This document shows, one piece after another, positions 1 to 39,433 of a stretch of DNA of 64,000 bases. The translations under genes were made by a program, and so were the position numbers. Origin of the DNA: Kosakonia sp. BYX6 (GTDB taxonomy: Bacteria; Pseudomonadota; Gammaproteobacteria; Enterobacterales; Enterobacteriaceae). A model generated the notes under the pieces. That model was not told the DNA's origin. It saw nothing but the letters and a program-made list of their open reading frames with translations, and did not search any database. The stretch spans positions 1,956,406 to 2,020,405 of the forward strand of contig NZ_CP151800.1 of NCBI RefSeq assembly GCF_038449125.1. The letters run 5' to 3'. The number at the start of each line of letters is the position of its first letter. Position 1 is the stretch's first letter.

Positions 1-22
1 TGAAGTGAGTAAGGGAATCGTG

Positions 23-220
23 ATGCAGACCATAAACAGCCGTACAGCTCGTCAGCATTTCAGCGCTACGCTTAACGCGGCAACGGCTGCACCGATTGAG
101 ATTACGCGCAGTGGGGGAGTTGAGTCGGTTGTGTGGATCAGTAAGCGAGAATATGAAACGTTGAAACATGCTGCGGGATGGCTGGTGGATACGCCAGTGA
201 AAGAGCCCGCCGCCGTGTGA
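23..220 (+). CDS. Phd/YefM-family antitoxin-like small protein
   Basis: This 65-residue protein has the layout of the Phd/YefM antitoxin N-terminal domain: a short strand, a helix with ARQHFSATLNAA, then PIEITRSGG and VVWISKREYETL. Family members bind operator DNA as dimers and neutralise a toxin through a C-terminal tail. The ATG lies six bases after AAGGGA; an in-frame GTG at position 5 has no ribosome site. No toxin gene follows: a terminator and then dcyD come next. Any partner must lie upstream of the window or be lost. The family call is moderately sure; the toxin-antitoxin role is inferred. Confidence 0.6.
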   Translation: MQTINSRTARQHFSATLNAATAAPIEITRSGGVESVVWISKREYETLKHAAGWLVDTPVKEPAAV

Positions 221-226
221 CAGTAA

Positions 227-1330
<1,104 letters not shown>

Positions 1331-1698
1331 CTGTTGTTCGGATTCGATTTTGGTTGATGAACGGCACCGGCGCGTATCCGCCAATTTCTGGAAACGTTTC
1401 TGTTGCAATAAACACACCGCGATTCAGCAACGCTTATTGCCTGAATCGCGGTAATTTGCCTTAAATCAGGCTGGAGAGGGAATTATTAGCGCACATATTA
1501 TCGGGCGCTATTTTTCCCTTCTGACAATGTGCCTTAAACGCCTGCCGCTATTTCCTTCCTTTCTTTGTCGTTAAATCCGGCAATTAATCCGACTTATTTC
1601 CAAATGTTCCGATATTTTATATTTATAATTAAGTTTTATGTGTTAGGTTATTGTATACAAAATAATGATTATTAAAAGCAGGGGTATTACCGGTCGGT
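1331..1698. other. Intergenic region dcyD-sdiA with long hairpin
   Basis: There is no gene in these 368 bases. At 1416-1452 a perfect 12-bp inverted repeat (ACCGCGATTCAG / CTGAATCGCGGT) closes a 13-base loop whose CAA/TTG could extend the stem. It probably ends dcyD transcription, although no long T-run follows. The stretch from about 1560 to 1690 is AT-rich and is the likely promoter and leader region of sdiA. In E. coli, tcyL and tcyN occupy this interval. Confidence 0.6.
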
Positions 1699-2421
1699 AT
1701 GCAGGAGAAAGATTTCTTTACCTGGCGGCGTGAAATGATCGCGCGATTCCAGGAGATGACAGCGGCACAGGACGTTTATACGGAGATTCAGCGGCAGACT
1801 CAGTTGCTGGAATTTGATTATTTTTCGCTTTGCGTGCGCCATCCGGTTCCTTTTACCCGGCCAAAGCTGAGCGTTGAAACTTCTTATCCGGCAGAGTGGA
1901 TGCTGCACTACCAGGCAGAGAATTACTTTGCCATCGATCCTGTGCTCAAAGCAGAGAACTTCATTCAGGGGCACTTGCCGTGGAATGACAAGCTCTTTCA
2001 TGACGCGATGACCTTGTGGGATGCCGCGCGGGATCACGGCTTGCGCAAAGGTATCTCGCAATGCCTGATGCTGCCTAACCACTCGCTGGGCTTTTTGTCC
2101 GTTTCACGCACCAGCCTGTTTGGCAAAATGATGGCGGATGATGAAATTGAGTTGCGGCTGCAAACGCTGGTGCAACAAAGTTTGATGGCGCTGACGCGAC
2201 TGGAAGATCACACCGTGATGACGCCGGAAATGAAATTCAGCAAACGCGAACGCGAAATCCTGAAATGGACGGCGGAAGGGAAAACCTCGGCGGAAATAGC
2301 GATGATTTTGTCTATTTCGGAAAATACCGTCAATTTCCACCAGAAGAACATGCAGAAGAAATTCAACGCGCCGAACAAAACGCAGATTGCTTGCTATGCG
2401 GCAGCAACGGGAATGATTTGA
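1699..2421 (+). CDS. sdiA: LuxR-type quorum-sensing regulator SdiA
   Basis: At 240 residues this has the full length of SdiA. The N-terminal autoinducer-binding domain (about 1-170) keeps the pocket residues Y63, W67, Y71, D80 and W95. The C-terminal LuxR helix-turn-helix (about 175-235) shows KREREILKWTAEGKTSAEIA followed by SENTVNFH. The family binds acyl-homoserine lactones and controls target promoters. No luxI-type synthase is in the window, so the protein probably senses foreign signals, as in other enterics. It is separated from uvrY by convergent yecF, so it is not co-transcribed with it. Confidence 0.95.
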   Translation: MQEKDFFTWRREMIARFQEMTAAQDVYTEIQRQTQLLEFDYFSLCVRHPVPFTRPKLSVETSYPAEWMLHYQAENYFAIDPVLKAENFIQGHLPWNDKLFHDAMTLWDAARDHGLRKGISQCLMLPNHSLGFLSVSRTSLFGKMMADDEIELRLQTLVQQSLMALTRLEDHTVMTPEMKFSKREREILKWTAEGKTSAEIAMILSISENTVNFHQKNMQKKFNAPNKTQIACYAAATGMI

Positions 2422-2450
2422 GAAATAAGCGCGCGGCGCATGCCAAACAA

Positions 2451-2482
2451 ATCCGGCTGACAGAAGACTCTGACAGCCGGAT
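2451..2482. terminator. Bidirectional terminator between sdiA and yecF
   Basis: The inverted repeat ATCCGGCTG / CAGCCGGAT (9 bp) lies between convergent sdiA and yecF, with AT-rich flanks on both sides, so it can serve both genes. Confidence 0.6.
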
Positions 2483-2487
2483 GTTAT

Positions 2488-2712
2488 TTATTGGCGGTAA
2501 GCTTGTTTAATTTGCTTAACAGTGACGGAATATACGCTGGCCTGAGCTTCATCTTCCATTTGTGCAATTTGCTTTTCCATTTTGATGATGACGCGGCCCG
2601 CGTCCGCCTGGCCCATCGCTTGCAGCATCAGTGTAATCATTGATTTCAGGCAAGAGACTTCCTGCGCCAGTTCCGTTGCATTATCAGCAGTGGAAAAATC
2701 AGGTGTGCTCAA
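2488..2712 (-). CDS. yecF: DUF2594 family protein YecF
   Basis: A 74-residue protein of unknown function that matches E. coli YecF in length and in the motifs [21 protein letters not shown] and [10 protein letters not shown]. It looks entirely helical, with no signal peptide or membrane segment. The start is a TTG: AGGAAA lies just upstream and the homology begins at this residue. The longer open frame reaching 2868 would add an unconserved N-terminus and is not used. It is convergent with sdiA and divergent from uvrY. Confidence 0.9.
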
Positions 2713-3179
2713 TTTATTTTCCTCGTTACGGTGTCGCGAACTTACGCGACGATCACTGTCAAAGCGGCGGAGTATACCACAAGGACCGCAAAAAAAAGCA
2801 GTGGTTGTTTTTTGATCATTGTGTCCGTTTATTGAATTAAACTCGTACGGCAATAAATCTCGGCACACTTTATTGCACTGAGAATATATGTTTAACCAAC
2901 GTTTAAGCGGGGTTAATTGTTGTTACATATAGCGCGCAGTAATTTGTACCAGTAAAAAACGGCTTTTTTGGTAACTTTCTGAAAACACGCATTTTTAAAA
3001 AACTCGCACCGCATTTAAAAAGCTGACAAAAGTTTCCACTTCATGTACAACTTAATTTCCAAAAGCGAGAACAAAATCCGACTGTAGTTGTTTTTTGACC
3101 TTTCATTGTTACGCAAAAAAAAGCTAATATATGCCGAATTAGGTTTTCGCAGCGTTATCCCTATTCCGGAGATACTCCA
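2713..3179. promoter_or_regulatory. Divergent control region of yecF and uvrY
   Basis: These 467 bases hold no supported gene. The uvrY-proximal 300 bases are strongly AT-rich with A and T runs, typical of an H-NS-prone control region. A possible -10 (TAATAT, 3125-3130) lies about 50 bases before uvrY, without a clear -35. Nothing else recognisable was found. Confidence 0.45.
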
Positions 3180-3836
3180 TTGATCAACGTACTACTTGTT
3201 GATGACCATGAACTGGTGCGCGCAGGGATACGACGCATTCTCGAAGATATTAAGGGCATAAAAGTCACGGGCGAAGTCAACTGTGGTGAAGACGCTATCA
3301 AATGGTGTCGCGCCAATTCCGTTGATGTCGTATTGATGGATATGAACATGCCCGGCATCGGTGGCCTTGAAGCGACGCGTAAAATCGCGCGCGGCACTGC
3401 CGACACCAAAGTCATTATGCTTACCGTTCACACTGAAAATCCCCTACCGGCAAAAGTTATGCAGGCCGGAGCCGCGGGATATCTCAGCAAAGGCGCCGCG
3501 CCGCAGGATGTGGTGAATGCCATTCGTTCTGTGCATTCTGGCCAGCGCTACATCGCTTCTGATATTGCTCAACAAATGGCGCTTAGCCAAATCGAACCGG
3601 AAAAAACGGACTCGCCGTTCGACAGTTTGTCTGAACGTGAATTGCAGATTATGCTGATGATCACTAAAGGCCAGAAGGTCAATGAGATCTCAGAGCAACT
3701 GCATCTGAGCCCGAAAACGGTGAACAGCTATCGCTATCGGATGTTCAGTAAATTGAACATTCACGGTGACGTCGAATTGACGCACCTCGCCATTCGCCAT
3801 GGTTTGTGCAATGCGGAGACGTTAATAAGTCAGTGA
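3180..3836 (+). CDS. uvrY: Response regulator UvrY (GacA/SirA family)
   Basis: This response regulator is the partner of the sensor kinase BarA. In relatives its phosphorylated form activates the csrB/csrC small RNAs, which titrate CsrA. At 218 residues it has a receiver domain (about 1-120, acidic pocket DD8-9, phospho-acceptor D54, lysine in YLSKGA) and a LuxR-type helix-turn-helix (about 150-210, [15 protein letters not shown] and [11 protein letters not shown]). The start is TTG after CCGGAG. Its stop overlaps the uvrC start in GTGA, the coupled arrangement found in enterics. BarA is not in the window. Confidence 0.97.
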
Positions 3837-5665
3837 CTGAAGTTTTTGATTCCAAAGCATTTCTCAAAACGGTAACCAGTAAGCCCGGTGTCTATCGTAT
3901 GTATGATACCGGCGGTACCGTTATCTATGTCGGTAAAGCGAAAGACCTCAAAAAACGTCTTTCCAGTTACTTTCGCAGCAATCTTGCCTCACGCAAAACC
4001 GAAGCGCTGGTCGCACAGATCCAACAGATCGATGTGACGGTGACCCACACCGAAACCGAAGCGTTGCTGCTGGAACACAACTATATCAAGCTGTATCAGC
4101 CGCGTTATAACGTGCTGTTGCGCGATGACAAATCTTACCCCTTTATTTTTCTCAGCGGCGATACTCACCCGCGCCTGGCAATGCACCGCGGTGCGAAGCA
4201 TGCGAAAGGTGAATATTTCGGGCCTTTCCCGAATGGTTACGCGGTGCGTGAAACCCTGGCGCTGTTGCAGAAAATCTTCCCGGTTCGCCAGTGCGAAAAC
4301 AGCGTTTATCGCAACCGCTCCCGTCCGTGCCTGCAATACCAGATTGGTCGCTGCCTCGGGCCGTGCGTTGCGGGGCTGGTGAGCGAAGAAGAGTATGCGC
4401 AGCAAGTTGATTATGTGCGTTTGTTTCTCGCCGGCAAAGACGACCAGGTATTGACGCAGCTTATCGCGCGGATGGAAAAAGCCAGCCAGTCACTGGAGTT
4501 TGAAGAAGCCGCGCGCGTTCGCGATCAAATCCAGGCCGTACGTCGAGTAACGGAAAAACAATTCGTGTCAAACACAGGCGACGATCTTGATGTGATCGGC
4601 GTGGCGTTTGATGCCGGGATGGCCTGCGTGCATGTGCTGTTTATTCGCCAGGGTAAAGTGCTGGGTAGCCGCAGTTATTTCCCAAAAGTGCCGGGTGGCA
4701 CAGAGCTTGGCGAAGTCGTGGAAACGTTTGTTGGTCAGTTTTATTTGCAGGGTAGCCAGATGCGCACGCTGCCAGGCGAAATCTTGCTTGATTTCAATCT
4801 CAGCGACAAAACGTTGCTCAGCGATTCGTTATCCGAACTGGCAGGGCGTAGAGTAAATGTGCAGACCAAACCGCGCGGCGATCGTGCGCGTTATTTAAAA
4901 CTGGCGCGCACCAATGCCGCCACGGCGCTCAGCACCAAACTTTCGCAGCAATCCACCGTACATCAACGCCTCGCCGCATTGGCGAGCGTCCTGGAGTTGC
5001 CAGAGGTTAAACGGATGGAGTGCTTTGATATCAGCCACACAATGGGCGAGCAAACCGTAGCTTCCTGCGTGGTGTTTGACGCGAATGGCCCGCTGCGCGC
5101 CGAATATCGGCGTTACAACATTACCGGCATTACACCGGGTGATGATTACGCGGCGATGAACCAGGTATTGCGCCGTCGGTATGGCAAAGCGATTGAAGAG
5201 AATAAAATTCCAGATGTGATCCTCATCGATGGTGGCAAAGGGCAACTGGGTCAGGCGAAAGCGGTTTTTGCCGAGCTGGATGTTCCCTGGGATAAGCACA
5301 AACCGCTGTTGTTAGGCGTCGCGAAAGGGGCGGATCGTAAAGCGGGCCTCGAAACGTTGTTTTTCGAACCGGAAGGTGAGGGCTTTAGCCTGCCGCCGGA
5401 TTCCCCGGCATTGCATGTGATTCAGCATATTCGCGATGAGTCCCACGATCACGCCATTAGCGGGCATCGTAAAAAACGCGCCAAAGTGAAAAATACCAGT
5501 TCGCTGGAGACCATCGAAGGTGTAGGCCCAAAACGTCGCCAGATGTTGTTGAAATATATGGGCGGGCTGCAGGGTTTACTCAACGCCAGCATCGAAGAAA
5601 TATCAAAAGTGCCGGGTATCTCGCAAGGTCTGGCAGAAAAGATCTACTACTCGTTGAAACATTAA
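3833..5665 (+). CDS. uvrC: Excinuclease ABC subunit UvrC
   Basis: UvrC makes the 3' and 5' incisions beside bulky DNA lesions after loading by UvrA2B. The 610 residues show the GIY-YIG nuclease domain (GVYRMY...VIYVGKA, about 15-95) and a Cys-rich stretch with [17 protein letters not shown] helical hairpin follows (about 200-235, [11 protein letters not shown]), then the RNase H-like second nuclease and tandem helix-hairpin-helix motifs ([23 protein letters not shown]). GTG at 3833 is taken as start because it overlaps the uvrY stop and gives exactly the E. coli length. An ATG nine codons earlier lies inside uvrY. Confidence 0.97.
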
Positions 5666-20936: not shown

Positions 20937-21713
20937 TCCTCACTCCCCGTGGCAATCAAGATTTTCTCACCATTACTCCGTTTGTCGAGCCAGTGCAACC
21001 CACGAATATGACAGGTCTGTGAAGGTAATCATAAATATTCATTAATTATTCTTAATAAATGACCTGGTCGCGCTTTAACCGTGTTAATCGAATTTAGAGT
21101 CTTAACCTAAATTCAAAGAATTTACGGTTAGATTGTTAAATTATCAATCGTACCGATTAACAAATTTGAAATGGTCACTTTGGTTAATTAATTAGCGATG
21201 CTTAAATCTTAATCTATTGTTTTATATGTATTTTTATTTTTGTCTCTGAGTTAGATACGGTTTGTTAAATGTTAACTGATTGGTATCGAACACCTCAGAC
21301 CAGTTGATGCATTCCCGCTGTGTTTTGCATGAGTATTCGGATAATTGGAATAGAAAAGAGGGTTAATAGAACAAAAAACAATCAACTCACAAGCGGGACT
21401 GATAGATTTCTTGTCCATAATCACTTAAATTATGTGACGTGGATCACAAAAATTTCAAATTTTCACACTAGTCAGATTGTATGTGTCAGCACCTACGAGT
21501 ACAGTTGCGTCGAATTAGGAAAAATCTTAGTTCTTTGTAAGAAATGATTAAGAGCGTAGCAAGGTATTAACATTTGAGCGAAGCGCCTTGCTCGCGAGAT
21601 CCTAAGTCAGTTATGCATTTGGCCTTTCTTTTTTATACCGGGTTTTTTCCCGGCGACATCACGGGGTGCGGTTCCACCGCATAAGTACAAGTTGGTTATT
21701 CGGGATGGGAAAA
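20937..21713 (+). promoter_or_regulatory. flhDC regulatory region and long leader
   Basis: This 777-base gene-free region ends at flhD. From about 21495 it follows the E. coli flhDC promoter and leader as I remember them (ACGAGTACAGTTGCGTCGA, GGAAAAATCTTAG, CCCGGCGACATCACGGGGTG, GTTGGTTATTC). TACAGT at 21500-21505 is the likely -10, putting the start near 21512 and giving a leader of about 200 nt. In E. coli CsrA and several small RNAs act on this leader. The upstream 400 bases are very AT-rich, suiting H-NS and LrhA-type control. Confidence 0.75.
21433..21448 (+). promoter_or_regulatory. CRP site of flhDC
   Basis: A perfect TGTGA-CGTGGA-TCACA. Its centre lies about 71 bases before the predicted start, the class I position known for E. 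coli flhDC, so flagellar synthesis should depend on cAMP-CRP. Confidence 0.88.
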
Positions 21714-24608: not shown

Positions 24609-26660
24609 GTGAGCATGGATATTAGTGATTTTTACCAAACATTTTTTGATGAGGCTGACGAACTGTTGGCCGATATGGAACAACATTTGTTGGATTTGGT
24701 GCCGGAAGCGCCAGATTCAGAACAGCTCAACGCCATCTTCCGTGCCGCACACTCCATTAAAGGTGGTGCGGGAACGTTTGGCTTTACCGTCTTGCAGGAA
24801 ACCACGCATCTGATGGAAAACCTGCTGGATGAAGCCCGGCGCGGCGAAATGCAGCTTAACACCGACATCATCAACCTGTTTTTGGAAACCAAAGATATTA
24901 TGCAGGAACAGCTCGACGCCTATAAAAGCTCTCAAGAGCCAGATGCTGCCAGCTTTGAATATATCTGCAATGCCCTGCGCCAGCTGGCGCTGGAAGCGAA
25001 AGGAGAAGGTGTTCCTGCGGCCACCAGTGGCGCAAAACTCTCCGTTGTAGAAAGTGCTGCGCTGGCCGCTGACACCACTACCGCACCGCAAGCTGAAAGC
25101 GACGGAAAATTGCGCATTGTCCTGACGCGTCTGAAAGAGAACGAAGTCGGGCTGCTGGAAGAAGAACTCGGTAACCTCGGTACCCTGAGCGATGTCGTGA
25201 AAGGTGCCGATAGCCTGAGCGCGACCCTCGATGGCGGCATCAGCGAAGACGATATTATCGCCGTGCTGTGCTTTGTTATCGAAGCCGACCAGATTGCGTT
25301 TGAAAAAGCCGCCGCCCCGGTCGCCGCTGAAGCGGTGGCTGAAGGTGTTGCTGAAGTCGCAGAAGCACCGGTTGAAGCCGCCGTTCCAGCAACAACACCG
25401 GCCACTGCGCCGGTGCTGAAAGCCGTGCCAAAAGAACAACCGGCAGGCCGCGAAAAACCGGCGCGCGGCAGCGAATCCACCAGCATCCGTGTGGCGGTCG
25501 AAAAAGTGGATCAGTTGATCAATCTGGTGGGCGAACTGGTGATCACCCAGTCGATGCTGGCCCAGCGCTCAAATGAGCTGGATCCGGTAACGCACGGTGA
25601 TTTGATCACCAGCATGACCCAGTTGCAGCGCAACGCCCGTGACTTGCAAGAGTCGGTCATGTCCATCCGTATGATGCCGATGGAATATGTCTTCAGCCGC
25701 TTCCCGCGTCTGGTGCGCGACCTGGCAAGCAAACTCGACAAACAGGTCGAACTGACGCTGCAAGGTAGCTCGACCGAACTGGATAAGAGCCTGATCGAAC
25801 GCATTATCGACCCGTTAACGCACCTCGTGCGTAACAGCCTCGACCACGGTATTGAAACGCCGCAAAAACGTGTCGAAGCCGGTAAGTCGCCGACTGGTAA
25901 CCTGATTCTTTCTGCGGAACACCAGGGCGGCAATATCTGCATCGAAGTGACCGACGATGGCGCAGGTCTTAACCGCGAGCGAATCCTTGCGAAAGCCATT
26001 TCGCAAGGGATGGCGGTTAACGAAAACATGACCGATGAAGAAGTCGGGATGCTGATTTTCGCGCCGGGCTTCTCGACTGCAGAACAAGTGACGGACGTTT
26101 CTGGCCGTGGTGTCGGGATGGACGTCGTAAAACGTAACATCCAGGAAATGGGTGGCCACGTTGAAATCAAATCGAAGCAAGGCACCGGTACGACCATCCG
26201 TATCCTGCTGCCGCTGACGCTGGCGATCCTCGACGGCATGTCAGTGAAAGTGAATAACGAAGTCTTTATTCTGCCGCTCAACGCTGTCATGGAATCCTTG
26301 CAGCCGCGCGAAGAAGATCTGCACCCGCTGGCCGGCGGCGAGCGCGTACTGGAAGTGCGCGGCGAATACCTGCCGCTGGTGGAACTGTGGAAAGTGTTTG
26401 ACGTCATGGGCGCGAAAACCGAAGCCACGCAGGGGATTGTCGTTATTCTGCAAAGCGCAGGTCGTCGCTACGCGTTGTTGGTCGACCAACTGATTGGTCA
26501 GCACCAGGTGGTAGTGAAAAACCTGGAAAGTAACTATCGCAAAGTGCCGGGGATTTCTGCCGCCACCATCCTCGGTGATGGTAGTGTCGCGCTGATCGTT
26601 GATGTATCAGCGTTGCAGGGGTTGAATCGTGAACATCGTATGGCGCACACAGCCGCCTGA
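24609..26660 (+). CDS. cheA: Chemotaxis histidine kinase CheA
   Basis: Autophosphorylating kinase of the receptor arrays. Its 683 residues have P1 with the phospho-site H48 in AAHSIKGG and a P2 domain (about 160-232). A long Ala/Pro/Val linker (about 233-287) leads to P3 dimerisation helices, the P4 ATP domain ([28 protein letters not shown]) and the CheW-like P5. It is 29 residues longer than E. coli CheA, mostly in the linker. GTG is the start, behind GAGGTGAT. Met98 is conserved as a possible internal start for short CheA (24900). Confidence 0.96.
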
Positions 26661-26682
26661 TTTAGTTAAAAAGGTATAAAAC

Positions 26683-27186
26683 ATGACCGGTATGAGTAAT
26701 GTAGCAAAACTGGCGGGCGAGCCATCAGGTCAGGAATTCCTGGTATTCACGCTGGGCGATGAAGAGTACGGCATCGATATTCTCAAAGTGCAGGAAATTC
26801 GTGGCTATGATCAGGTGACCCGCATCGCCAATACCCCAGACTTTATTAAAGGTGTGACCAACTTGCGCGGCGTGATCGTGCCGATTGTCGACCTGCGCGT
26901 GAAGTTCAGCCAGGGCGACGTCGAATACAACGAAAACACGGTGGTCATCGTGCTGAACCTCGGTCAGCGCGTGGTCGGTATCGTGGTGGATGGCGTGTCT
27001 GACGTGCTGTCGCTGGCGGCGGACCAGATTCGCCCGGCGCCGGAATTCGCTGTCACCCTGTCGACTGAATACCTGACCGGCCTCGGCGCGCTCGGCGACC
27101 GTATGCTGATTCTGGTGAACATCGAAAAACTGCTCAACAGCGACGAAATGGCGCTGCTGGACATCGCGGCGACCCACGTAGCGTAA
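26683..27186 (+). CDS. cheW: Chemotaxis coupling protein CheW
   Basis: Adaptor that links chemoreceptors to CheA; 167 residues as in E. coli. It is a single SH3-like CheW domain with the conserved [13 protein letters not shown] core and ILVNIEKLL end. It follows cheA by 22 bases and closes the motABcheAW operon, ended by a hairpin. The next chemotaxis gene, tar, is 5.7 kb away because a fimbrial operon intervenes. Confidence 0.97.
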
Positions 27187-27192
27187 TTTAAC

Positions 27193-27225
27193 GGGCGGGT
27201 GAAATAATCATCCGCCCATTTATTT
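27193..27225 (+). terminator. Terminator of the motABcheAW operon
   Basis: GGGCGG G-TGA pairs with TCA-T-CCGCCC (10 bp with one G-T) around a 5-base loop, then ATTTATTTC. Confidence 0.75.
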
Positions 27226-27582
27226 CCCACCCGCCAAACCCCGCTTTACCCTTCAGCAACGCTTAAGCACGATTTACCCTTTCTAATATCTTCTTTTTAC
27301 ACATTTAAATATATTGAGATAATTGTCACATTTTCATGCATATATCGTTTGCAATTGCTGACATTTTTTGCAAAAAGTGCACTTAACCTTCTGAATCTAT
27401 TCATTAAAAATGTTAACGAGCGCGTTACATTTTCGCGCTTCGTCAAAGTGGTTGAACCCTCCGACGTAAACTAAATTTCAGTTATTCCTGCGTTTTTTTA
27501 CTTTGTTTCTTTTTTTGCGTTTTTCCCGGGTGACTCATTGATTGGGTAATGAATGGCACACGGCATCTTCGGAGGCGACAAC
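27226..27582 (+). promoter_or_regulatory. Upstream region of the fimbrial operon
   Basis: No gene is present. The 27280-27420 segment is strongly AT-rich (ATTTAAATATATTG, GCATATATCG), in contrast to the GC-rich coding DNA around it, and typical of H-NS-silenced surface-organelle promoters. A small GAGCGCG/CGCGCTT hairpin lies near 27418-27440. No sigma-28 promoter was found, so the fimbriae are not obviously in the flagellar regulon. Confidence 0.5.
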
Positions 27583-28152
27583 ATGAACAGAAAACTTCTT
27601 TATGTGCTGGCAAGTGGCGCGCTGGTGATGGTTGGGCAGAATGCTCAGGCGGTCACCAGTAGCGGTACCATTGGTGCAACATTAACGCTGACGAATGGTT
27701 GTCTGATTAACGGTTCGCCGAGCCAGAACGGGATCAACTTCGGTACGCTGGATTTTGGTACGCACCCGGCGACCTTCTCGCAGCTCACCACGCAGTTAAC
27801 CGGCGCCAGCGGCGGTAACAGCTTCGGTATTCAATGTACCACCACCGATTACACCGTGCAGATCACCGGTAACACCAACTCCACCGCGCCGGGTACGGTT
27901 ATCGGCACGCCGGGCACACCGGCGCGTTATTTGGTTAACGCGGCGAACACCACCCAGGGCGTGGCGTACAGCCTCTACAGCGATAGCGGTTTCAGTAACG
28001 TTATCGCCAACAACACCAACATTCCTCGCGCCTCCACCACAGGCGGCGTCGACAACTACACACTCTACGGGCGAATCACCGGAGGCGGGAACAGCGTGAC
28101 CGTCGTACCAGGGACTTACACCGATACGATTAACGTGAGTGTGACGTACTAA
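27583..28152 (+). CDS. Spore coat U domain fimbrial subunit (CsuA/B-like)
   Basis: A 189-residue secreted protein. The signal peptide is cleaved after AQA, and a spore coat protein U (SCPU) domain follows, with GATLTLTNGCLING, NFGTLDFGTHP, FGIQCTTTDYTVQI and the C-terminal GTYTDTINVSVTY donor-type strand. By position and size it is the probable major pilin of a Csu-type (archaic) chaperone-usher fimbria. GGAGG fixes the start at the second ATG of the frame. It is first in a five-gene operon. Confidence 0.85.
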   Translation: MNRKLLYVLASGALVMVGQNAQAVTSSGTIGATLTLTNGCLINGSPSQNGINFGTLDFGTHPATFSQLTTQLTGASGGNSFGIQCTTTDYTVQITGNTNSTAPGTVIGTPGTPARYLVNAANTTQGVAYSLYSDSGFSNVIANNTNIPRASTTGGVDNYTLYGRITGGGNSVTVVPGTYTDTINVSVTY

Positions 28153-28162
28153 ACCTCTTCCT

Positions 28163-28717
28163 ATGAGAAAGGGCAGCGTGCGTGTTTCCCTGCGGGGGAA
28201 CCGGGGAGTTCTGCGCGCAATTTCAGGGCTGATTCTGCTGGGAATGCTGGCGCGACAAGAAGCGCTCGCGGTGACGACGCAAACATTCACCGTGGGCGCA
28301 ACAATAACGCCGGGGTGCTCAGTGGTGAGCGGCAGTGGCGGGGCGCTCGGTGCGCTCAATTTTGGCACCCGAACGGGTGTACAAAGCGGGCAGGTGACCA
28401 CCTCTTTTGTCCCCAACGCCTCACTCTCTTTGGGGTGCACGCCGGGCGTGGCGCTCAGTATGAGCATCAACGGCGGGCAGAATTATTCCACCGTGCGCAA
28501 TATGCAGCGCAGCGGCGGGACTGAGCGTGTGCCGTACCGCATTTACAGCAGCAGTACGCTGGCGGCGAATACGGAAATTGGCGTCAATCAGGCCGTCTCC
28601 GTGGCGTATACCGATGGCAATAACATTTCGCTGGCGATTTTTGGCGCGGCGCAACTCACCGGGTTTAGCCCGGCAGGAAACTATACAGATCAACTGACCG
28701 TGACATTGTCATGGTGA
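28163..28717 (+). CDS. Spore coat U domain minor fimbrial subunit
   Basis: A second SCPU-domain protein, 184 residues, with a long basic N-region and a hydrophobic signal core (SGLILLGMLARQEALA). The domain then shows TITPGCSVVSG, ALNFGTRTG, LSMSINGGQNY and the ending GNYTDQLTVTLSW. It is distinct from the first subunit and probably a minor pilin. The ATG lacks a ribosome site; a GTG five codons on (28178) has AAAGGG ahead and may be the true start. It lies ten bases after the first subunit gene. Confidence 0.82.
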   Translation: MRKGSVRVSLRGNRGVLRAISGLILLGMLARQEALAVTTQTFTVGATITPGCSVVSGSGGALGALNFGTRTGVQSGQVTTSFVPNASLSLGCTPGVALSMSINGGQNYSTVRNMQRSGGTERVPYRIYSSSTLAANTEIGVNQAVSVAYTDGNNISLAIFGAAQLTGFSPAGNYTDQLTVTLSW

Positions 28718-28731
28718 AAAGGGAGAAGTGC

Positions 28732-29496
28732 ATGAACGTCACCTCGTCTGCCCGCGCGGCAGGCTTATTGCTGGCGGGCGCGCTGACACTGACGGCGGGA
28801 AAAGCGCAAGCAGCGGCAACCATCTTACTCTGGCCCATCGACCCCTGGCTCGGCGCGACAACGAATGCCACCGAATTGTGGATTCAAAATCAGGGCGAAA
28901 CCCCAGCCACCATGCAGGTGCGCATCGTGCGCTGGACCCAAGAGGGCGGCCTTGAGCGTTACCAGCAACAAAACGATGTGGTCGCCAGCCCGCCTATCGT
29001 GCGCATCGACAAAGAGGGAAAACAGCTCATTCGCCTGATCAAACAGGTGCACATCCCCACCGGCAAAGAACAGGCCTACCGAATTATTGTCGATGAGATC
29101 CCGCAGCCGGAAGACACCGCAAACCCGCAAATCGGCCTGAAACTGCAAATGCGTTACTCCATTCCACTCTTTGCTTACGGGCAGGGCATCCAAACCAACA
29201 CCGAAGGCGCACACCATGCGGTGGCCGATCCGGCCAAATTGAGCTGGCGGGTGGTGCGTGACGGTGGTCGTCCGGCGCTCGAAGTCCGTAACGACGGCGA
29301 TGTTCACGTCCGGTTAAGTAAAGTGCGGGTACGCCAGGGCGGCCAGATGCGGCAAATCGCCGATGGCTTACTCGGTTACGTTCTTCCGCACAGCGCGCGC
29401 AGCTGGCCATTGCCGGCCAGTGTTACCAATCCATCGGAGCTGAACGCGACGATTAACGCGCGGGAAGGCCAATGGCAGTCGTCCGCGGGCAACTGA
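28732..29496 (+). CDS. Periplasmic fimbrial chaperone (CsuC-like)
   Basis: A 254-residue PapD-type chaperone with a signal peptide ending KAQA. An immunoglobulin-like first domain carries ATELWIQNQGE, MQVRIVRW and the RLIKQV strand, followed by YRIIVDEIP, the family signature region. It folds pilin subunits by donor-strand complementation and delivers them to the usher. The second ATG is used because GGGAG lies ahead. It overlaps the usher gene by 25 bases. Confidence 0.87.
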   Translation: MNVTSSARAAGLLLAGALTLTAGKAQAAATILLWPIDPWLGATTNATELWIQNQGETPATMQVRIVRWTQEGGLERYQQQNDVVASPPIVRIDKEGKQLIRLIKQVHIPTGKEQAYRIIVDEIPQPEDTANPQIGLKLQMRYSIPLFAYGQGIQTNTEGAHHAVADPAKLSWRVVRDGGRPALEVRNDGDVHVRLSKVRVRQGGQMRQIADGLLGYVLPHSARSWPLPASVTNPSELNATINAREGQWQSSAGN

Positions 29497-31868
29497 TCCT
29501 GCCGGTGACAATCATGCTGCTGGGAAGTTCGGCCTGGGCGCAGCAAGGCGACGATGGGTTACCGCCGCCGCCGGATGCGCGGGCGATCAACGAACAGGCT
29601 GTTTTTCACTTAGGTCTGGTAATCAACCATTACGACACGCAACAAGTCGTGCCGGTGACCCGGCGGCAGAATGATTTTTACATCTCGAACGCGGATCTGC
29701 TGCACGCGGGGATCCCCGCGGAGCATCTGCCGCAGGGCGAAGTCAATCTCTCGACCTTGCCAAATGTGCGCGCCGAATACGACAGCGAAGGCCAGCGCTT
29801 ATTGCTGACGGTGCCCAAAGAGTGGGTGCCGGAACGCGACACCGCCTTTTCCGGCAATGCAAAACGCAGCGAACCGAAATACGGGCAGGGCGCACTGCTC
29901 AACTACGACGTCTATACCAGCACCACGGAACATGCGGGCGGGCAGGCGGCGTTATGGCATGAGTTTCGTTACTTCAACGGCAATGGCACGTTCTCTTCCA
30001 CCGGTTCGCTGCGCAAAACGATCACTGGCGATATGGAGCAGCAAGAGGGCTATGTGCGTTATGACTCCACCCTCACTTTCCTCGATGAAGATGACGCCAC
30101 GCAATGGGATGTCGGGGATGTGATAACCGACGCGTTAACCTGGAGCAGCAGCGTGCGCGTGGGGGGCTTGCGTTACGGGCGGGATTTCTCGCTGCGCCCG
30201 GATCTGGTGACCTGGCCGATTCCGGCGTTTTCCGGTGAAGCGGCGGTTCCCACTTCGGTCGACGTCTTCATTAATGGTTACCGCGCCGGGAACACACAGA
30301 TTCAGCCCGGCCCCTTCACACTGACCAACATGCCTTATATCAACGGCGCCGGTGACGCGGTGCTGGTCACGACTGATGCGCTCGGGCGGCAGGTCAGTAC
30401 CACGTTACCTTTCTATGTCGCCAGCGATCTTCTCAAACCGGGTCTCAGCGATGGCGCGATTACGGTCGGTTCGCTGCGGCGAAATTACGGGGTGGACAAT
30501 TTTGATTACGGGCCGCTGGTAGGAAGCGGCTCGTATCGTTATGGCGTCAACGATTATTTAACTCTGGAAGCCCACGGCGAAGGGGCCGAGTCGCTGGCGC
30601 TTGGCGGCGCGGGCGCGGTGGTAAAACTGGGCCGCTTAGGCGTGGTGAACAGCGCGTGGACGCAAAGCCATATGTACGGCGAAGACGGCAACCAGTTCAC
30701 CTGGGGTTACCAGTACAACACCAGCCTGTTTAGCGTGAACACGCAACATAGCCGCCGCACGGCGGCGTTCGGCAACCTGGCGCTGTATGACCAAATCGGT
30801 AATTACAACGATATGCGTCAGGGCGGGGAGCGAACGCCGATTGCCAGCCTGAGCCGCAATACTGACCAATATTCGCTGACTTTTAATATGGGCAATTACG
30901 GTAACGTTGGCGCGGCGTGGATCGGCGTGCGCAGCTTCGACAACGACAAAACCGAACTGCTGAACCTCTCCTGGAGCCGCAACCTGTGGGGCAGCAGCAG
31001 TATTTACCTCGCCGCCAGCCGCGATAACCAACAAGGCGACTGGACCTTTGCCATGTCATTGCAAATTCCGATCGGCGAAACCGACAGCGCCGCCATCACC
31101 ATGGAGAAAACGCCGGATGCAGGCAGTACGCAGCGGATCAACTACAACCACGTGATGCCGACAGACGGCGGCTTTAGCTGGAACATGGCGCTGGCACGTC
31201 AGGCGGATAATAAAACGTACCAGCAAGGCACACTTGGCTGGCGCAATAATAAAGTCGAATTGCAGGGCGGCGCATATGGTGAGCGCGACATGATGACCTG
31301 GTGGGGCGAAGCGCTCGGTTCCGTGGTGCTGATGGACGGCCAGGTGTTTGCTGCCAACCGCATCAACGACGCCTTTGCGGTGATCAGCACCGGCGGGCAC
31401 GCCAACGTGCCGGTGAATTATGAAAACCAGCCGGTCGGCGTAACCGACGACAATGGTTATCTGCTGGTCAGCGGCGTGTCGGCCTATTACCCGGCCAGTT
31501 ACAGCATCGACACGCTCAATCTCCCGGCGGATACTCGCCTGAAAGACACCGAACGGAAAATCTCCCTGCGCCGCCACAGTGGTTACCTGGTGGAATTCCC
31601 GATGGTGCAGGAGCGCGTCGCCAGCGTGATTTTGCATGACGAAAACGGCGAGGCGATTCCGGTTGCCAGCCTGGTGGATCGCACAGGTAAAGCCACCGCC
31701 ATCGTTGGCTATGACGGCATCGCCTGGCTGGAAACGCTTGACGATGTTAACCCGCTGCATGTCCGCTTGCCGGAAGGGGGAAGCTGCGATGCGAGTTTCA
31801 CGGTCGCTCCCAATCCCGAACATAAATTGCAGACCTACGGGCCGCTTACCTGCCGGAGGAATCCATAA
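29472..31868 (+). CDS. Outer-membrane fimbrial usher (CsuD-like)
   Basis: A 798-residue usher with a signal peptide ending AWA and an N-terminal periplasmic domain (about 40-140). A 24-strand barrel follows, interrupted by a plug (PTSVDVFINGYRAGNTQIQPG), and the C-terminal domain ends with CDASFTVAPNPEH and a paired Cys in LTCRRNP. It threads chaperone-bound subunits across the outer membrane. Its length is typical of the archaic family. It overlaps the chaperone gene and its stop shares one base with the next start. Confidence 0.9.
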   Translation: MAVVRGQLILPVTIMLLGSSAWAQQGDDGLPPPPDARAINEQAVFHLGLVINHYDTQQVVPVTRRQNDFYISNADLLHAGIPAEHLPQGEVNLSTLPNVRAEYDSEGQRLLLTVPKEWVPERDTAFSGNAKRSEPKYGQGALLNYDVYTSTTEHAGGQAALWHEFRYFNGNGTFSSTGSLRKTITGDMEQQEGYVRYDSTLTFLDEDDATQWDVGDVITDALTWSSSVRVGGLRYGRDFSLRPDLVTWPIPAFSGEAAVPTSVDVFINGYRAGNTQIQPGPFTLTNMPYINGAGDAVLVTTDALGRQVSTTLPFYVASDLLKPGLSDGAITVGSLRRNYGVDNFDYGPLVGSGSYRYGVNDYLTLEAHGEGAESLALGGAGAVVKLGRLGVVNSAWTQSHMYGEDGNQFTWGYQYNTSLFSVNTQHSRRTAAFGNLALYDQIGNYNDMRQGGERTPIASLSRNTDQYSLTFNMGNYGNVGAAWIGVRSFDNDKTELLNLSWSRNLWGSSSIYLAASRDNQQGDWTFAMSLQIPIGETDSAAITMEKTPDAGSTQRINYNHVMPTDGGFSWNMALARQADNKTYQQGTLGWRNNKVELQGGAYGERDMMTWWGEALGSVVLMDGQVFAANRINDAFAVISTGGHANVPVNYENQPVGVTDDNGYLLVSGVSAYYPASYSIDTLNLPADTRLKDTERKISLRRHSGYLVEFPMVQERVASVILHDENGEAIPVASLVDRTGKATAIVGYDGIAWLETLDDVNPLHVRLPEGGSCDASFTVAPNPEHKLQTYGPLTCRRNP

Positions 31869-32830
31869 TGCGTCGGCTTCTCTTTTTCATTTTACTGTTC
31901 TGTACCGGCCAGGCCTGGTCGGCGTGCACCGTCAGCACCACCAACGGCGCATTCGGCACCGTCACCTCGTTTGTGCTCAACGCTACCGCGCAGAGCACCA
32001 CCGCTAACTTGATTTTGCAATGCGATGCGACGCTCAACCTGCTCACCAACGACTCGGCGACGCTGACATTAATTGGCGCATCGGCCACCGCGACCAACCG
32101 TGGGGTGATGAAACGCACCGATGACGCGACCGTCGCGGATACCATCCCGATTCGCGTCTGCGGGCAGGCGAACTGTGCCAATAACAGCGAGGCGGTGATC
32201 GGCGGTACGGGCTACACCTGGAGTGGCCCGACGCTGCTGGCGCTGCTCGGTTCGAAAACCTATACGTTGCCACTCTATTTTATGACCGTGCCGGGGCAGA
32301 ATGTCTCTGCCGGGCCGTACCGGGTGACGCTTAACTTCAGCGTCGCTTATAACATCTGTGCTGTTGGTCTGCTGGGGCTGTGTTCCACGGCGCAAGTCGG
32401 TACCGCCTCGACCAGCACACAAATAACCGGCACCATCACCAACGACTGCACCACCATCAGCGCGCCGAACGTCAATTTTGGTAGCGCGCCGCTGGTGCGC
32501 TCTTTCCCGACCATTTCGCAATCCATCGCCATTACCTGTACCAAAGGCAGCACCTATACGGTCGGTATCAATAACGGTCTTTATGCCAACGGCAGCGTGC
32601 GCAATATGGCGAGCGGCAGCAATCGCCTGAGTTATGAGATTTACAAAGCGGGAACCACCAGCCGCTGGGGAAGTGTCGGCGCCGATCGCTGGTCGAGCGG
32701 CGTGTCATCGCAAGTCAGTACCGACGGCTTGTTACGTACCTACAATTACACCGCGCAGGTGCTGACGTCGCAGACCACACCGCCGGGAGGAACCTACAGC
32801 GATACGTTGACTGTCGATATCACTTTTTAA
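31868..32830 (+). CDS. Two-domain fimbrial tip protein (CsuE-like)
   Basis: A 320-residue secreted protein with a short signal peptide (FFILLFCTGQAWS) and two consecutive SCPU domains, about 20-165 and 185-320. The second ends GTYSDTLTVDITF. Two-domain SCPU proteins at the end of Csu operons are tip adhesins in Acinetobacter; that role is inferred here. TAATG overlap with the usher couples translation. It is the last gene before the sigma-28 promoter of tar. Confidence 0.83.
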   Translation: MRRLLFFILLFCTGQAWSACTVSTTNGAFGTVTSFVLNATAQSTTANLILQCDATLNLLTNDSATLTLIGASATATNRGVMKRTDDATVADTIPIRVCGQANCANNSEAVIGGTGYTWSGPTLLALLGSKTYTLPLYFMTVPGQNVSAGPYRVTLNFSVAYNICAVGLLGLCSTAQVGTASTSTQITGTITNDCTTISAPNVNFGSAPLVRSFPTISQSIAITCTKGSTYTVGINNGLYANGSVRNMASGSNRLSYEIYKAGTTSRWGSVGADRWSSGVSSQVSTDGLLRTYNYTAQVLTSQTTPPGGTYSDTLTVDITF

Positions 32831-32858
32831 GCGACAATTTAATTCCCTTTCGCAAATG

Positions 32859-32885
32859 TAAAGTTCCCTGGCCGGATGCCGATAA
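32859..32885 (+). promoter_or_regulatory. Sigma-28 (FliA) promoter of tar
   Basis: TAAAGTTC - 11 bases - GCCGATAA, one mismatch from consensus, 31 bases before tar and 28 after the fimbrial operon. It drives the tar-tap-cheRBYZ operon independently of its new upstream neighbours. Confidence 0.93.
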
Positions 32886-32916
32886 CACCGTTAATCACTT
32901 ATGAAGAAGGTGTTGC

Positions 32917-34578
32917 ATGTTGAACCGTATCCGCGTCGTTACTCTGCTTATGAGCGTGCTGGTGGTCTTCGCACTGTTGCAGCTCGTTTCCGGGGGACTT
33001 TTTTTCTCGTCGCTTAAGCAAAACCAGCAAAGTTTTGCGGTCTCCAATGACTTGCGCATGCAGCAAACGGAATTGGGTAAAGCCTGGGAGTTGATGCTGC
33101 AAACCCGTATCAACCTGAGCCGTTCTTCTGCGCGTATGTTGCTCGACCCGAGCAACCAACAAAGCAGCGCCAAAACCGACTTGCTGAACAGCGCGAAAGC
33201 CTCGCTGGCCGATGCGGCGAAACATTACGACGCTTACCGCGCGCTGCCAACGCGCCCGGAAATGGACGCCGCCCGCCAAACGCTGGATGAGAAATACCAG
33301 ACTTATCACGCCGCGCTCAGCGAACTGGTGCAGTTCCTCGAAAGCGGCAATATCAACAGCTTCATGGCGCAGCCGACGCAGGGCATGCAAAACGCCCTCG
33401 GCGACGCAATGGCGAAATACGCCAGCCTGAGCGACAGCCTCTATCGCAACGCCTGGGATCAGAGCGTCAGTGATTACACCTTCGCCAAATGGCAGATGGC
33501 GGTGCTCGCATTGGCGCTGGTGATTGTGCTGGCGGGCGTTTGGTACGGCATCCGTCGCATTCTGCTCTCGCCGTTGTCGGCGGTGATCGCCCACATCCGC
33601 GAAATCGCCAGCGGCAACCTGACGCACTCGCTGCGCGTTGCTGGCCGCAGTGAAATGACTGAACTGGCGCAGAGCGTGGATCATATGCAAAACGCCTTGA
33701 TTGAAACCGTCACCAATGTGCGCCAGGGCTCGGATGCGATTTACTCCGGCACCAGCGAAATTGCCGCCGGTAACAACGATCTCTCCTCACGAACTGAAGA
33801 ACAAGCTTCCGCGCTGGAAGAGACCGCCGCCAGCATGGAAGAGTTGACCGCGACGGTGAAACAGAACGCCGATAACGCCCGTCAGGCGTCGCAACTGGCG
33901 CAAAGCGCTTCCGAAACCGCAGAACGCGGCGGCAAAGTGGTCGATGGCGTGGTGAAAACCATGCACGAGATCGCCACCAGTTCGCAGAAAATCGCCGATA
34001 TTATCAGCGTGATTGATGGTATTGCCTTCCAGACCAATATCCTCGCCCTTAACGCGGCGGTGGAAGCGGCGCGCGCCGGTGAGCAAGGCCGTGGTTTCGC
34101 GGTCGTGGCGGGTGAAGTGCGTAACCTCGCCAGCCGCAGTGCCCAGGCGGCAAAAGAAATTAAATCATTAATTGAAGATTCTGTTTCCCGTGTCGATACC
34201 GGTTCAGTACTGGTGGAAAGTGCAGGGGAAACCATGTCGGACATCGTCAACGCGGTTACGCGGGTGAACGACATCATGGGTGAGATCGCCTCGGCATCTG
34301 ATGAACAGAGCCGCGGCATCGATCAGGTTGCGCTGGCCGTCTCCGAAATGGACCGTGTCACGCAGCAAAATGCGTCACTGGTGCAACAATCGGCGGCCGC
34401 AGCGGCAGCCTTAGAAGAACAAGCCAGTCGTTTGACGCAGGCGGTATCGGCCTTCCGCCTTTCCTCTGTACCTGGCATGGCGCAGCACGCTATTACACCG
34501 GCAGCAGGCCGCGCTCAGACCCCGGCGCGGAGTCGCCAACTTGACACCGGACAAGAAGAGAATTGGGAAACCTTTTAA
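32917..34578 (+). CDS. tar: Aspartate/maltose-type chemoreceptor Tar
   Basis: A methyl-accepting chemoreceptor of 553 residues, exactly E. coli Tar length. It has two membrane helices and a four-helix periplasmic domain with the aspartate-binding arginines R64, R69 and R73 in [21 protein letters not shown] supplies the fourth-helix Thr. A HAMP domain (about 215-265), methylation helices and the receptor tip [20 protein letters not shown] follow. The C-terminal NWETF tethers CheR and CheB. Aspartate sensing is well supported; maltose sensing is inferred. Confidence 0.93.
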
Positions 34579-38572: not shown

Positions 38573-39217
38573 ATGATTCAACCTTTAATGAAACCAGCGG
38601 ATGAACATTCACCCACCGACATTATTGCCCGCATAGGCAGCCTCACGCGTATGCTGCGTGACAGCCTGCGCGAATTGGGTCTGGACCAGGCGATTGCCGA
38701 AGCGGCGGAAGCGATTCCGGATGCGCGCGACCGTCTGGACTATGTGGTGCAGATGACGGCACAAGCGGCTGAACGCGCGCTGAACAGCGTGGAAGCCTCT
38801 CAACCTCATCAGGATGAGATGGAAAAAGGCGCGAAAGCGCTGACCAAACGCTGGGACGAGTGGTTCGAAAACCCGATTGAACTGGCGGACGCGCGTGAAC
38901 TGGTGACCGACACCCGTAAATACCTGGGTGAAGTGCCTGGGCATACCAGTTTCACCAACGCCCAACTGCTCGACATCATGATGGCGCAGGATTTCCAGGA
39001 TCTGACCGGTCAGGTGATCAAGCGCATGATGGACGTGGTGCAGGAAATCGAACGTCAGTTGCTGATGGTGCTGCTGGAAAACATTCCAGAACAGTCAGCG
39101 CGTCCGAAACGTGAAAACGAAAGCCTGCTCAATGGCCCACAACTCGACGCGACCAAAGCGGGCGTGGTGGCAAGCCAGGACCAGGTGGACGATTTGCTGG
39201 ACAGCCTCGGTTTCTAA
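38573..39217 (+). CDS. cheZ: CheY-P phosphatase CheZ
   Basis: Accelerates dephosphorylation of CheY. The 214 residues form a long helical hairpin. The active-site Q147 and D143 lie in [14 protein letters not shown], and the C-terminal CheY-binding helix [10 protein letters not shown] is intact. It follows cheY by 11 bases. Last gene of the tar operon, ended by a terminator at 39284. Confidence 0.97.
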
Positions 39218-39283
39218 CCAAGCGTTATCAGTGGCTTACAGAAAAGTGGGCAGGGCAGAACCCTCCCGCTTTTTGCCTGCTTT

Positions 39284-39303
39284 GCGGTTTTAACCGCTTT
39301 TTC
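39284..39303 (+). terminator. Terminator after cheZ
   Basis: GCGGT / ACCGC stem followed by TTTTTCTC. A weaker imperfect G-rich hairpin precedes it at 39246-39269, before TTTTT. Confidence 0.65.
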
Positions 39304-39433
39304 TCGCAACCTATGCGTGAATCTTCCCTGCGCCAAATGGCGAAAACCCCCTGTTTTTATGCCTTACTCCGCCCATTAGACAGGCTTGACTCTGGCAATA
39401 TGACGTCACACCTGTAACCCGTGGACGTTGGCC

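Follow-up and report, generated by a model that had tools for sequence, protein, structure and literature searches.

Why does an operon for attachment pili lie inside the motility locus of Kosakonia sp. BYX6, between the chemotaxis genes cheW and tar, and is it a newcomer there? The question arose from a sequence-only reading of a 64,000-nucleotide stretch of this genome (contig NZ_CP151800.1, positions 1,956,406 to 2,020,405; referred to below as the window, to which all coordinates refer), in which five genes were described as a Csu-like fimbrial operon inserted exactly at the boundary of two chemotaxis operons. It was found that the kind of operon had been recognized correctly, but that the comparison with relatives did not agree with an insertion. 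We consider it quite probable that the csu-type operon is an old resident of the site that has been inherited, or exchanged, jointly with the chemotaxis genes, with a leader of its own and with partial read-through into tar-tap-cheRBYZ.

A csu-type pilus operon between cheW and tar

Judged from its sequence, the five-gene set is an archaic Csu-type (sigma-fimbria) chaperone-usher pilus operon, which is a known kind of pilus. The open reading frames (ORFs), Pfam and NCBIfam all supported this part of the earlier description: five plus-strand ORFs at 27583–32830 make up a complete archaic (Csu-type, SCPU) operon between cheW and tar, with all genes in the same direction and their ends overlapping or nearly touching. 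The SCPU domain (PF05229) was present in three of the proteins. Among solved structures, the chaperone matched CsuC with an expectation value (E) of 1.3e-42, compared with only ∼3e-4 for the next-best chaperones. The usher matched an annotated csuD at 34.4% over 95%. The tip protein could be aligned to CsuE over residues 105–320 (5.6e-20, or 7.9e-29 with a profile), while its N-terminal ∼100 residues gave no sequence alignment to CsuE. For both pilins the best solved relative was 8cio, and CsuA/B was also matched. The PDB label of 8cio is only SCPU domain-containing protein; we take it to be the CupE pilin of Pseudomonas aeruginosa. The CupE operon and its genomic place are other than those of the window. 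The start of the first pilin was set at 27583, immediately preceded by GGAGG, the earliest start in the ORF list being 27553. An Rfam scan of 26600–33200 with E up to 1 revealed no known RNA element.

The same operon kind at the same place has been described before. In Enterobacter sp. 638 the order is "tar csuEDCAB int cheWA", which Taghavi et al. (2010) termed a pilus-gene insertion in the flagellar region; according to that paper, the csu genes have a possible biofilm role and, with an integrase as neighbour, a later acquisition was suggested (PMC2869309). Besides the integrase, Enterobacter sp. 638 carries fimbrial genes of a second set, located between cheZ and flhB, whereas the window has neither; the gap between the CheZ and FlhB ORFs of the window (39217–39428) is ∼210 bp long and does not hold the second set. 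The Csu system of Acinetobacter baumannii resembles that of the window in its SCPU pilins, CsuC-like chaperone, usher and two-domain tip, but it consists of six proteins (CsuA/B, CsuA, CsuB, C, D, E) (PMC9452303), so that the five genes of the window, with one minor subunit fewer, fall outside a strict definition by six proteins and two adaptor subunits. Such a definition would also take in hydrophobic finger loops at the tip and a thin zigzag pilus that promotes biofilm formation. The sigma-fimbria of Dickeya fangzhongdai likewise has five csu-type genes, lacks one minor subunit and left short remnants in a sister clade; a location in a chemotaxis locus is not reported in the accessible part of the description (PMC6329079). 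Among the literature matches listed, which excluded subscription papers, no study later than 2010 dealt with the regulation of the operon or its place in the chemotaxis locus. No mention of csu, flagella, chemotaxis or motility was found in PMC11279048, nor of synteny, chemotaxis, flagella, sigma or csu in PMC5717340. The operon kind and the site are already in print; what is new is that the leader is conserved and the 3' end open.

The pilins would be exported and held by the chaperone, and the usher would polymerize them to a thin pilus bearing the two-domain tip for attachment.

Age of the operon at its site

A recent horizontal insertion in this lineage, exactly at the operon boundary, would be in line with E. 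coli, in 5,426 genomes of which the usher had no match at the DNA level, and with the integrase and suggested later acquisition in Enterobacter sp. 638. We give it hardly any credence, because the operon is widespread at the same site, its usher tree agrees with the chemotaxis genes, its base composition is like that of its neighbours (G+C of 52–62% over the operon genes in 500-bp windows), and operon-less Kosakonia carry scars that already contradict it. Furthermore, no integrase was found among the five genes by Pfam, and the gap between cheW and the operon in the window holds no ORF of 90 or more residues.

A scan of named genomes yielded 20 usher relatives, and all 20 loci (numbered with the prefix L) matched all five genes in the same order. 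The operon was followed by tar in 19 of them, L016 having a Tap-like receptor there, and cheW lay on the 5' side in 19; in L007, from Lelliottia sp. V86_10, the 5.1 kb upstream of the operon (1–5104) gave no match to cheW, cheA or motB, and a larger insertion or rearrangement is possible. Eight named genera, namely Kosakonia, Enterobacter, Lelliottia, Leclercia, Phytobacter, Huaxiibacter, Silvania and Superficieibacter, had the operon at this site. We also searched 295 genomes sampled from the family, in which cheW was matched in at least 170 (the best matches of 150 were used) and the usher in 80 at E of 1e-150 or better. Ushers of at least 60% identity (n = 41) sat 2.2–9.3 kb past cheW on the same strand in 39 cases and on a contig other than that of cheW in two. 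In contrast, those of at most 58% identity were more than 50 kb from cheW on its contig (13), on other contigs (19), or in genomes without cheW among the matches listed (8, two of them at 58%). Plasmid-borne relatives were considered as a source and rejected: all 21 records at E of 1e-100 or better were below 60% identity, and the best 20 of the 21 were at ∼34–40%. Compared with the later acquisition suggested for Enterobacter sp. 638 (PMC2869309), this wider sample favours an old resident.

Close relatives with an intact empty site, as expected of a recent insertion, were not found. Among the sampled Kosakonia, cheW was present in 15/15 genomes and the operon in 8/15. A scar was accepted when its score exceeded the best of 60 first-order random sequences by more than 4. 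By this measure, six of the seven operon-less cheW–tar gaps in the genus retained remnants of the tip-gene end, and L058 also had first-pilin remnants. The seventh, L056, stayed within the margin (tip score of 28, null maximum of 27); because its gap aligned with those of L053, L054, L058 and L059 at 76–84% identity over 258–266 bp, it is regarded as the same scar as that of its sisters. L057, also operon-less, had kept the leader (score of 126 against a null maximum of 32). These remnants and the L056 alignment indicated that the ancestor of these Kosakonia genomes had the operon in its motility locus, and that repeated losses followed within the genus. When presence and absence were placed on a 70-row tree of chemotaxis genes, 14 changes were counted. 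The Kosakonia absences fell in three places (one five-row clade, L055 and L057), which together with the scars we read as three losses.

The usher tree was compared with the chemotaxis-gene tree over 33 loci, and 27 of 30 splits were common to both. All 19 usher splits with support of at least 95 recurred in the chemotaxis tree without conflict, and one conflict was seen at 90; the nesting within Kosakonia agreed except for the order of three closely related rows. In a set of 21 genomes, the two trees had 16/18 splits in common. On the evidence of these trees, the operon and the motility locus move as one piece.

Several observations weigh against an old, inherited pilus operon or against parts of that reading. 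In the same 21 genomes, only 9/18 splits were common to the usher tree and a gyrB+rpoB+infB tree, with three conflicts at 95 (label permutations gave a mean of 0.2 common splits and a maximum of 3 in 500). Since the chemotaxis genes conflicted with the gyrB+rpoB+infB tree as well (five conflicts at support 95), the whole locus has probably been exchanged between genera, and strict descent is unproven. The scar test covered 35 of the 40 operon-less loci, and in 27 of the 28 outside Kosakonia no pilus-gene scar rose above the margin, so old loss lacks support there, apart from the leader-like elements of L078 described below; only L074 passed (first pilin, 34 versus 29). The AlphaFold model of the tip protein was poor, with a mean predicted local distance difference test score of 63.4, and was too weak to be of use. 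Finally, the CRP-type site of the window, described below, is itself imperfect, and its mismatch is common to the sister species L093. Our preferred reading is that the operon was present in the motility locus of the Kosakonia ancestor and would have travelled with the chemotaxis genes since then, not that it was recently inserted.

Control at the two ends of the operon

Separate control had been suggested earlier from an AT-rich leader without a sigma-28 box. It was confirmed that the leader is AT-rich (36% G+C over ∼320 bp) and that it contains no sigma-28 box, even with up to three mismatches; direct sigma-28 control of the operon was rejected on this ground. A CRP-type site was found ∼260 bp 5' of the first operon gene, the name CRP being assumed from the consensus. 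Allowing one mismatch, 31 of 33 leaders had the site (16 of them a perfect one) and those of L106 and L016 lacked it, compared with 53/4000 random 320-bp pieces of the loci and 69/6600 randomized leaders. The spacing from this site to CTAAATT was 155–158 bp in 28 of the 29 leaders having both; from CTAAATT to the start codon, by contrast, the distance ranged from 41 to 112. As the leaders share common ancestry, the counts are not independent of one another. Another candidate, a sigma-70-like match at 27296–27323 overlapping the CRP-type site, was discarded; such matches were not in excess over shuffles (3 versus a mean of 2.9), and by eye its second hexamer was lost in the sister species.

Because the leader is conserved, with a CRP-type site, a CTAAATT at fixed spacing and no sigma-28 box, the 5' end lends support to the proposed separate control, and the conserved upstream site is what a CRP-regulated fimbrial operon should carry. 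Transcription would proceed from this leader, with the cAMP-CRP-type site (cAMP, cyclic AMP) at a near-fixed distance from the promoter-like element; we infer from the sequence the binding and action of CRP as well as the position of the transcription start. Leader-like sequence was also seen in operon-less loci. In L078 a CRP-type site and CTAAATT lie 157 bp apart, with an overall leader similarity at the null maximum (37 versus 36). L060, L061, L062, L065 and L091 scored above the null against leaders, best against symporter-linked ones, which may reflect the upstream region of the symporter itself.

The operon might alternatively be read through from motAB-cheAW under sigma-28, as a flagellar class 3 unit. 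Its same-strand position 396 bp after the cheW stop codon would suit this, but a terminator-like hairpin after cheW, the conserved leader and the antisense symporter lying between cheW and the operon in many relatives make it very unlikely. The hairpin corresponds to the terminator reported earlier, in a scan that gave eight such sites against a shuffle mean of 6.7. By loose criteria and without a null, 18 of 21 loci with the operon and 16 of 19 without it had such a hairpin after cheW.

The situation was different at the 3' end. The sigma-28 promoter of tar stood at the position given in the sequence-only reading, and the interval from the tip gene to tar showed no terminator in the window. 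In 27 of 29 operon loci the tip stop codon was 20–40 bp from the tar sigma-28 box, with no terminator seen (a count made without shuffle control); L103 and L110 were the exceptions. Since no terminator was seen there, read-through of fimbrial transcription into tar-tap-cheRBYZ is likely from the sequence, and part of the operon transcription probably runs on in this way. Separate control is not supported at this end. The claim that both chemotaxis operons are spared fits the hairpin before the pilus operon, but not its junction with tar.

We suggest, very tentatively, that tar-tap-cheRBYZ has in this operon a built-in second promoter system, in which firing of the cAMP-CRP leader would give pili together with receptors and adaptation enzymes without FliA. 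If this were true, a carbon-status signal would couple surface attachment to chemotaxis, and the fixed close junction of the operon with tar across genera would be accounted for.

It had also been proposed that swimming and attachment are regulated in opposite directions. This found no backing: the sole regulator site found was CRP-like, and flhD (21666) likewise has a perfect CRP-type site upstream of it, at 21433–21448. Five CRP-type sites with at most one mismatch were found in the window, against a shuffle mean of 1.6. Given such sites before both flhD and the pilus operon, carbon status may act on swimming and pili alike. According to a review, pap pili depend on the cAMP-CAP complex, and MrpJ and PapX are fimbria-linked repressors acting at flhD (PMC9820224). 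No MrpJ/PapX-like regulator was present among the five operon genes.

Table 1. Coordinates of the pilus operon, its leader and its flanks in the window
Feature	Position	Strand	Remarks
cheW	26683–27186		5' flank of operon; above NCBIfam equivalog cut-off
Intrinsic terminator-like hairpin after cheW, end of motAB-cheAW	27193–27217	+	hairpin scan
CRP-type site TGAGA-N6-TCACA	27315–27330	+	1 mismatch to consensus TGTGA-N6-TCACA
Conserved ATATAT	27340–27345	+	+25 bp from CRP-type site start in 29/31 site-bearing leaders
Candidate core promoter TGGTTG-N17-TAAATT	27449–27477	+	contains CTAAATT (27471–27477); promoter role a guess
SCPU pilin 1, probable main rod subunit (CsuA/B-like)	27583–28152	+	Pfam SCPU 4.2e-20
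SCPU pilin 2, probable minor/adaptor subunit	28163–28717	+	Pfam SCPU 3.4e-23
Periplasmic chaperone, PapD-type, nearest solved relative CsuC	28711–29496	+	Pfam PapD_N 3.7e-20
Outer-membrane usher, CsuD-type	29472–31868	+	Pfam Usher 2.1e-34 plus PapC_C
Two-domain tip protein, CsuE-like	31868–32830	+	Pfam SCPU 6.5e-35, 2 stretches
Sigma-28 promoter of tar	32859–32885	+	0 mismatches to pattern; 28 bp past tip stop codon
tar	32917–34578		3' flank of operon; above NCBIfam equivalog cut-off

Other occupants of the gap and meaning of the locus

Beyond its direct flanks, the operon is surrounded by motility genes, with Pfam domains of MotA, MotB and CheA upstream, and of CheR, CheB, CheZ, FlhB and FlhA plus a CheY-sized receiver downstream. 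In relatives, the cheW–tar gap looks like a favoured lodging site. A sodium:dicarboxylate symporter (Pfam SDF) lies antisense between cheW and the pilus operon in L006 (3416–4672, minus strand). Symporter-like ORFs, either in this position or as the only occupant of the gap, were observed in L009–L011, L013, L017, L018, L020, L022, L060–L062, L065–L067, L076–L078, L091, L092, L102, L106 and L110, the Pfam check having been made on L006 only. Single loci showed further contents: in L107 (809–4837, minus strand), two Tli4-type immunity proteins with a PGAP1/LCAT-like alpha/beta protein, all lying between cheW and the operon and possibly forming a lipase effector set; a 5'-nucleotidase and a 434-residue ORF without Pfam match in L112 (760–3691); and a porin in L067 (1365–2636). 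In Phytobacter, an extra copy of the first pilin was located upstream in L008 (4307–4666) and L014 (4090–4650), 30% and 63% identical to that of the window. L063, beside Phytobacter on the tree, has a gap with two SCPU pilin genes and a 404-residue ORF without Pfam match (oriented 1090–4188), and no usher at E of 1e-150 or better. Switching by a FimB-type recombinase, an idea taken from the integrase of Enterobacter sp. 638, was rejected: no recombinase was recognized in the cheW–operon gaps of 17 of the 20 named relatives, smaller ORFs not having been searched, and the large extra ORF in those gaps, where present, was symporter-like or another pilin.

The symporter in many relatives, together with the porin, the immunity proteins and the 5'-nucleotidase in single loci, would suit a gap that is merely permissive, so that the place of the pilus has no regulatory meaning. 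The 14 changes in operon presence on the 70-row tree point the same way, and we give this explanation a nearly even chance. Nevertheless, the fixed leader architecture and the 20–40 bp that separate the operon from the tar box in 27 of 29 loci are more regular than it needs, although they do not prove a coupling to motility.

The account of an insertion is accordingly corrected to that of an old resident, lost repeatedly within the genus. In Enterobacteriaceae such as Kosakonia and Enterobacter, the operon offers, with its CRP-type site, fixed leader and open 3' end, a specific and testable link from attachment pili to the chemotaxis genes.

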